From assembly GCF_021890735.1 (NCBI RefSeq), contig NZ_JAKKUR010000009.1, positions 1 through 55,940 on the forward strand: DNA of 55,940 bases, in the 5' to 3' direction. The translations under genes were made by a program, and so were the position numbers. The notes below the pieces were generated by a model. That model had not been told where the DNA came from and did no database searches. It saw only the letters and a list, made by a program, of their open reading frames with translations. Shown here piece after piece: positions 3,835 through 4,290 of the stretch; the stretch's first letter is position 1, and each line of letters opens with the position of its first letter. The DNA comes from Thermanaeromonas sp. (GTDB lineage Bacteria; Bacillota; DSM-521; Neomoorellales; Neomoorellaceae).

Positions 3835-4024
3835 AAATGATGCCCCCTTACCAGTCTTGCGACCCAAATGTTTTTATTGTATTCGCCATTGAAGGCAAAT
3901 ATCCTCTTTTTTTGTAAGGAATATTGACCTAATCTATTATTTGTAACTATTTACCATAATATACCTCACCTTTAAGTTTAGCTCCGCATCTGCCGGGCCA
4001 TAATAAAAATTGAGGTGAGTTTGG

Positions 4025-4141
4025 GTGGGTAAATTTATTGCCTTTTTGTTGATAGTGCTCCTCGGGGGAAGCACTCTATACGTCATTTATAAAGGGGTCC
4101 TTCTTCCCCTTTTCGAGCCTTATTTTAAAACCCGACAATAA
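4025..4141 (+). CDS. small single-pass membrane protein, 38 residues
   Basis: A GTG start at 4025 follows a TGAGGTGAG ribosome site (4011-4019) at good spacing. The frame runs to a TAA at 4139-4141. The product starts MGKFIAFLLIVLLGG, a clear membrane helix, continues through a second hydrophobic patch (LYVIYKGVLLPLFEPYF), and ends in basic residues. It stands alone on the plus strand between the divergent dnaG and the convergent dgt. No family is recognised; the size and single helix fit regulatory or sporulation membrane peptides, but that is only a guess. Confidence 0.6.
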   Translation: MGKFIAFLLIVLLGGSTLYVIYKGVLLPLFEPYFKTRQ

Positions 4142-4182
4142 AAAAATTAGGGTCTATAGTATAAAATATGGGGTTCACCGGT

Positions 4183-4290
4183 TATAATACGCTTGGAAGG
4201 TACTTACGGGAAATCCTGCCGGCGCCTTCGTCAAGTGCCGGATAGCCTGACGAGCGAAGAGATTTCCCAGGTACCTTCCCATTATTTTTT
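4183..4290 (+). ncRNA. compact structured RNA or repeat with its own -10 box and T tract
   Basis: A TATAAT at 4183-4188 lies seven bases before a perfect 9-bp closing stem, GGAAGGTAC (4195-4203) with GTACCTTCC (4271-4279). A perfect 8-bp stem follows, GGGAAATC (4208-4215) with GATTTCCC (4261-4268). Inside, CTTCG (4226-4230) pairs with CGAAG (4255-4259). CCGGC (4219-4223) can pair with GCCGG (4237-4241), which would cross the inner stem as an H-type pseudoknot. ATTATTTTTT follows the element. There is no clear -35 box. It may be a small RNA, a strong terminator, or a dispersed palindromic repeat. Confidence 0.5.

Follow-up and report, generated by a model that had tools for sequence, protein, structure and literature searches.

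To our knowledge, very few forespore RNAs are known. One of them is CsfG, a forespore small RNA of B. subtilis, listed in Rfam as RF00516 ('ylbH'). CsfG is reported to be controlled by sigma-F and sigma-G and to be restricted to the forespore; its target has not been identified and its disruption causes no obvious sporulation defect (PMC9147052). The loops of CsfG are CU-rich (PMC3574147). Bvs196 of B. velezensis, a sigma-F/sigma-G dependent forespore small RNA of 294 nt, is encoded by an independent intergenic gene that has a terminator of its own, its stems are conserved while its loops are variable, and it binds the spo0A and sspN-tlp mRNAs (PMC9147052).

Analysis of a window of 55,940 nucleotides (the whole stretch of DNA presented above) reveals one copy of a predicted RNA gene of ~90 nt at positions 4195–4290 of the + strand, located between two DNA-metabolism genes (Table 1). 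This locus is probably a free-standing gene for a structured forespore RNA, which would terminate its own transcription and act in trans, and which would represent a new family.

Fold of the RNA and its comparative support

The predicted RNA consists of a long closing stem, formed by a perfect 9-bp helix (4195–4203/4271–4279) and a perfect 8-bp helix (4208–4215/4261–4268) and followed by a T tract, and this stem encloses an H-type pseudoknot. Both helices were already noted in a preliminary description of this DNA and are present as given there, as are its TATAAT at 4183 and the T tract after 4279. The minimum free energy of the 108-nt stretch is -40.1 kcal/mol versus -25.9 ± 2.9 kcal/mol in dinucleotide shuffles (n = 200), and the fold of the + strand beats all 200 of them (z = -4.8). 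Lengths of P1 obtained from RNAduplex were left unused because they were inflated by A/T-rich flanks.

Table 1. Coordinates of the predicted RNA and of its associated signals in the window.
Feature	Position	Strand	Remarks
-35, GTATA, forespore sigma-F/sigma-G type	4159..4163	+	17/17 close homologues; pattern in 32/40 distinct homologues
-10, GGTTATAATA	4180..4189	+	contains TATAAT (4183-4188); conserved in homologues
Predicted small RNA	4195..4290	+	start placed 6 nt past the -10, end in T tract; both ends predicted
P1a, 5' strand	4195..4203	+	pairs with 4271-4279; perfect 9 bp; equivalent outer stem in homologues
P1b, 5' strand	4208..4215	+	pairs with 4261-4268; perfect 8 bp; double changes in 8/8 pairs
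Unpaired CUG	4216..4218	+	invariant, 40/40 distinct homologues
P2, 5' strand, CCGGCGC	4219..4225	+	pairs with 4235-4241; double changes in all pairs; 91% of cells paired
P3, 5' strand, UCGUCA, within P2 loop	4228..4233	+	pairs with 4248-4253, forming the pseudoknot
P2, 3' strand, GUGCCGG	4235..4241	+	covariation
Unpaired AUAGCC, P2-P3 junction	4242..4247	+	conserved; UAGC 40/40
P3, 3' strand, UGACGA	4248..4253	+	covariation
Unpaired GCGAAGA, P3-P1b junction	4254..4260	+	each position 39-40/40
P1b, 3' strand	4261..4268	+	covariation
P1a, 3' strand, and T tract	4271..4290	+	intrinsic-terminator-like end

Covariation was analysed in 40 distinct homologous sequences with a median pairwise identity of 62%. 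P1b, P2 and P3 taken together are paired in 90% of cells, with compensatory double changes in 19 of their 22 pairs; the covariation score is reached by none of 500 shuffles, and pairing falls to 28–41% when one strand is slid as a control. P3 (TCGTCA/TGACGA, 4228–4233/4248–4253), which crosses P2, is by itself 90% paired (slid controls 3–42%) and shows double changes in three pairs, its central pairs being nearly invariant. Such a pattern supports the predicted fold, including the H-type pseudoknot, as a conserved RNA structure. Absence of covariation in homologues had been named beforehand as a possible refutation; covariation is present and strongly favours an RNA.

The pseudoknot of the preliminary description is partly retained. 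Its helix CCGGC/GCCGG (4219–4223/4237–4241) is right and extends further, to 4219–4225/4235–4241. However, the stem that it assigned as the crossing partner, CTTCG/CGAAG (4226–4230/4255–4259), is paired in only 66% of cells, which equals the shuffled level, and is devoid of double changes; the actual partner of P2 is P3.

Alignment of 17 close homologues reveals long invariant blocks together with helices that vary. Among the 40 distinct sequences, CUG, UAGC and GCGAAGA show little or no change while the helices vary freely, an invariance that is somewhat inflated because the search models and the pattern contained those letters. A weak but probably true divergent member of the family (L238) shows changes in these otherwise invariant loops.

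Promoter-like signals and gene neighbourhood

The RNA is preceded by a promoter-like element of the form GTATA-N16-GGTTATAATA. Published consensus sequences are GTATA/GGNAANAMTR for sigma-F and GNATA/CAWAMTA for sigma-G (PMC3416734). In C. difficile, sigma-F promoters are distinguished by a G preceding the -10 and sigma-G promoters by an A following it, and the spoVT gene of this organism, whose -10 has both, is a possible dual target (PMC3789822). The promoter in the window also has both the G and the A at these places. GTATA followed at a nearly fixed distance by GG(T/C)nAnAATA is present in 32 of the 40 distinct homologues versus 0.65 expected from dinucleotide shuffles, and several of the eight upstream regions which miss the strict pattern are near-matches. 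At the level of sequence, the promoter of the RNA is of the forespore (sigma-F/sigma-G) type. The TATAAT, previously described as the RNA's own -10 box, is thus present but forms part of a longer conserved element of forespore type, which starts with GTATA at 4159, upstream of the coordinates of the preliminary description, and is not an ordinary -10.

As a positive control, the SASP gene of the same genome is preceded by GCATA-N17-CATACTA. spoIIR, tried as a control for sigma-F promoters, was useless because it lies directly after another gene (apparently the end of sigG) and is without such a promoter of its own. A strict scan of the genome for GTATA-N-ANAATA gives 11 matches, mostly within reading frames. 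A T tract, taken as 6 or more T in 8, lies at the sense 3' side of 33 of the 40 homologues versus 16.5 in shuffled sequences and 11 on the other strand. The covariation, the promoters in 32 of 40 homologues and these T tracts together support the earlier proposal of a putative small RNA that contains a pseudoknot and is preceded by a promoter of its own.

BLASTN locates the element in almost every relative belonging to the same family, and each time it lies within the spacer between dgt and dnaG, which is the usual site of the RNA gene. Two families carry it elsewhere, one between galT-like and mgtC-like genes and the other between plsY-like and pssA-like genes (names given by eye from translations), and in one genome the RNA is flipped relative to dgt. 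In 15 of the 16 loci inspected, the RNA and the gene downstream of it are on opposite strands. Because the loci vary and the RNA flips, its INDEPENDENCE from the neighbours excludes an element of the dgt 3' end and disfavours a riboswitch.

The dgt-dnaG spacer also contains a conserved ORF for a single-pass membrane peptide of 38 aa with a GTG start (MGKFIAFLLIVLLGGSTLYVIYKGVLLPLFEPYFKTRQ; 4025–4141, + strand), which is found in most relatives at 42–92% identity (tblastn). It is likewise preceded by promoter-like sequence of the forespore type, GTTTA-N18-CATAATA at 3976–4005, and relatives have GCATA/GTATA...GGTAAAAT there. This ORF is probably a neighbour and not a part of the RNA, and it is possible that its product is an undescribed forespore micropeptide. 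Elsewhere in the window, two adjoining tRNA genes (633–704 and 712–783, - strand) are located downstream of rpoD.

Distribution and relation to known RNA families

The element is single-copy in its own genome. Within the order, our first covariance model (R1) finds a single strong copy in 21 of 22 genomes; it has matches in 59 of the 398 genomes sampled from the phylum. A second model (R2), built from 50 matches, gives a single strong match in 60 of the 398 genomes, belonging to 16 families, plus two weak matches, and the weakest R1 matches are absent under it. Genome G006, of the same family as the window genome, encodes SpoIIR and has no convincing copy of the RNA. The copy search in this genome and its relatives and the covariance model, both suggested in the preliminary description, thus yield single copies and a conserved family.

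L238 (centre G086:C17:34893-34955) is a very divergent probable member with its own GCATA...GGCCATACTG. The number of carriers is probably a lower bound because L238 appears to belong to the family despite its divergence, which suggests that the family extends beyond the reach of the current models. When 84,980 species genomes were scanned with a pattern and the 80 loci listed were then scored with the model, only named Bacillota lineages were kept among these loci, namely Moorella, Peptococcaceae, Syntrophomonadaceae, Desulfitobacteriaceae, Thermoanaerobacteraceae and unclassified Clostridia/Clostridiales. Low-scoring pattern matches, including L108 in Carboxydothermus, were judged to be due to chance.

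SpoIIR is found in 332 of the 398 genomes (66 are without it) and in all 60 strong carriers of the RNA (hypergeometric 7e-6, relatedness ignored), so that by this measure the RNA is limited to endospore formers. The association is confounded by descent, and the reverse fails, many sporulators being without the RNA.

In Rfam 15 (4227 families) the element has no match at the gathering score or at E<=10, in line with the preliminary description, which recognised no known family; none of the known Rfam families matched the 20 homologous loci, and phage records gave no match to the element. Among the papers that we searched, none reports this RNA. An earlier description outside Rfam is still conceivable because the supplementary motif lists of large RNA surveys lay outside the reach of that search.

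RF00516 has a match at a separate locus of the window's genome (G000:C31:2207-2337, 44.8 bits) and none, up to E<=10, to the stretch in the window or to the 20 homologous RNA loci. The pseudoknotted RNA is not CsfG. As a further positive control for the promoter, CsfG is preceded by GTATA-N18-CATAATA in most of the relatives aligned. CsfG is detected in 148 of the 398 genomes at E<=1e-3, only 12 of them above the Rfam gathering cut-off, and its aligned copies have AGAGCTTAGGGTTA...ACCCTCCCCCATGAGCTCTTCCTCCGG in common.

Possible function and comparison with known systems

The comparative evidence supports an RNA with a conserved pseudoknot fold, which is present in single copy, has promoter-like and terminator-like signals of its own and occurs only in SpoIIR-positive genomes. 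As to its transcription in the forespore, its action in trans and the nature of its partner, we infer the following. Forespore RNA polymerase with sigma-F, and probably also with sigma-G, would initiate at ~4195. The transcript would fold into the H-type pseudoknot (P2 with P3) clamped by the long closing stem P1, which together with the T tract would terminate the RNA's own transcription. Acting in trans, the RNA might use the pseudoknot to pack the near-invariant CUG, UAGC and GCGAAGA into a surface that a conserved partner would bind. A protein or a small ligand appears more likely as this partner than a set of mRNAs because the loops are frozen while the helices vary, the opposite of Bvs196. 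In this way the RNA might tune forespore development or spore properties. We suggest tentatively, and with less than even confidence, that these RNAs form a deep, undescribed pseudoknotted class, confined to the Clostridia-type forespore, which binds a protein or ligand through its invariant core and is not antisense.

Base-pairing is the main rival to binding of a protein or ligand. A forespore antisense RNA would pair UAGC and GCGAAGA with the translation starts of sporulation mRNAs, a mode of action that has been proposed for Bvs196, the pseudoknot serving only to stabilise it, and both the forespore-type promoter and the precedent of Bvs196, which binds mRNAs (PMC9147052), raise such a possibility. 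However, the loop sequences are frozen over 16 families whereas those of Bvs196 vary, and pairing with CsfG is no better than with shuffled sequence in five genomes, so that antisense action seems rather unlikely. A small self-cleaving ribozyme, with the pseudoknot and its nearly invariant loops as the catalytic core, is much less probable still, given that the gene is free-standing and has a promoter and a terminator of its own, that each genome carries a single copy and that none of the known Rfam ribozyme classes matches.

Cis-regulation, a mobile repeat and a plain terminator were rejected on the basis of the loci, the copy number and the covariation. The riboswitch-like fold considered earlier, or another cis-acting leader of the neighbouring gene, would agree with the aptamer-like pattern of conservation and with the one locus (L106) in which dnaG follows on the same strand; the orientation of the next gene in nearly all loci, the varying neighbours and the occurrence of the RNA at unrelated loci leave very little room for it. 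Even less credit is due to a plain terminator or palindromic mobile repeat with a pseudoknot arising by chance. Its basis is the stem followed by a T tract, against which stand the covariation, which includes the pseudoknot, the conserved promoter and the single copies in the own genome and in the 60 carriers.

If the reading as a free-standing forespore RNA is correct, the element would constitute a second forespore RNA family, structurally more informative than CsfG, and would offer a handle on RNA in the developing spore. It occurs in 16 families, often together with CsfG in one genome. Partner hunting and structure determination are directly feasible because the core is conserved, and our covariance model supplies a family absent from Rfam.

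Like CsfG, the predicted pseudoknotted RNA is small, occurs in endospore formers and has a forespore-type promoter, and both are present in the same Moorella-type genomes behind GTATA...ATAATA promoters. However, it lies at a separate locus, differs in sequence and is not matched by RF00516, and in contrast to the CU-rich loops of CsfG it has a pseudoknot whose invariant segments (CUG, AUAGC and GCGAAGA) are purine-rich. With Bvs196 it shares the independent intergenic gene, the forespore-type promoter and the terminator-like end, but Bvs196, set apart here by its description, is a 294-nt RNA of Bacillus, and in our RNA the loops are frozen while the helices vary. Compact H-type pseudoknot riboswitch aptamers have invariant core nucleotides and helices which covary freely. 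Unlike these aptamers, the RNA is not located upstream of a controllable gene and has no match among Rfam riboswitches; in its invariant core and covarying helices it resembles them, and it could work as an aptamer.
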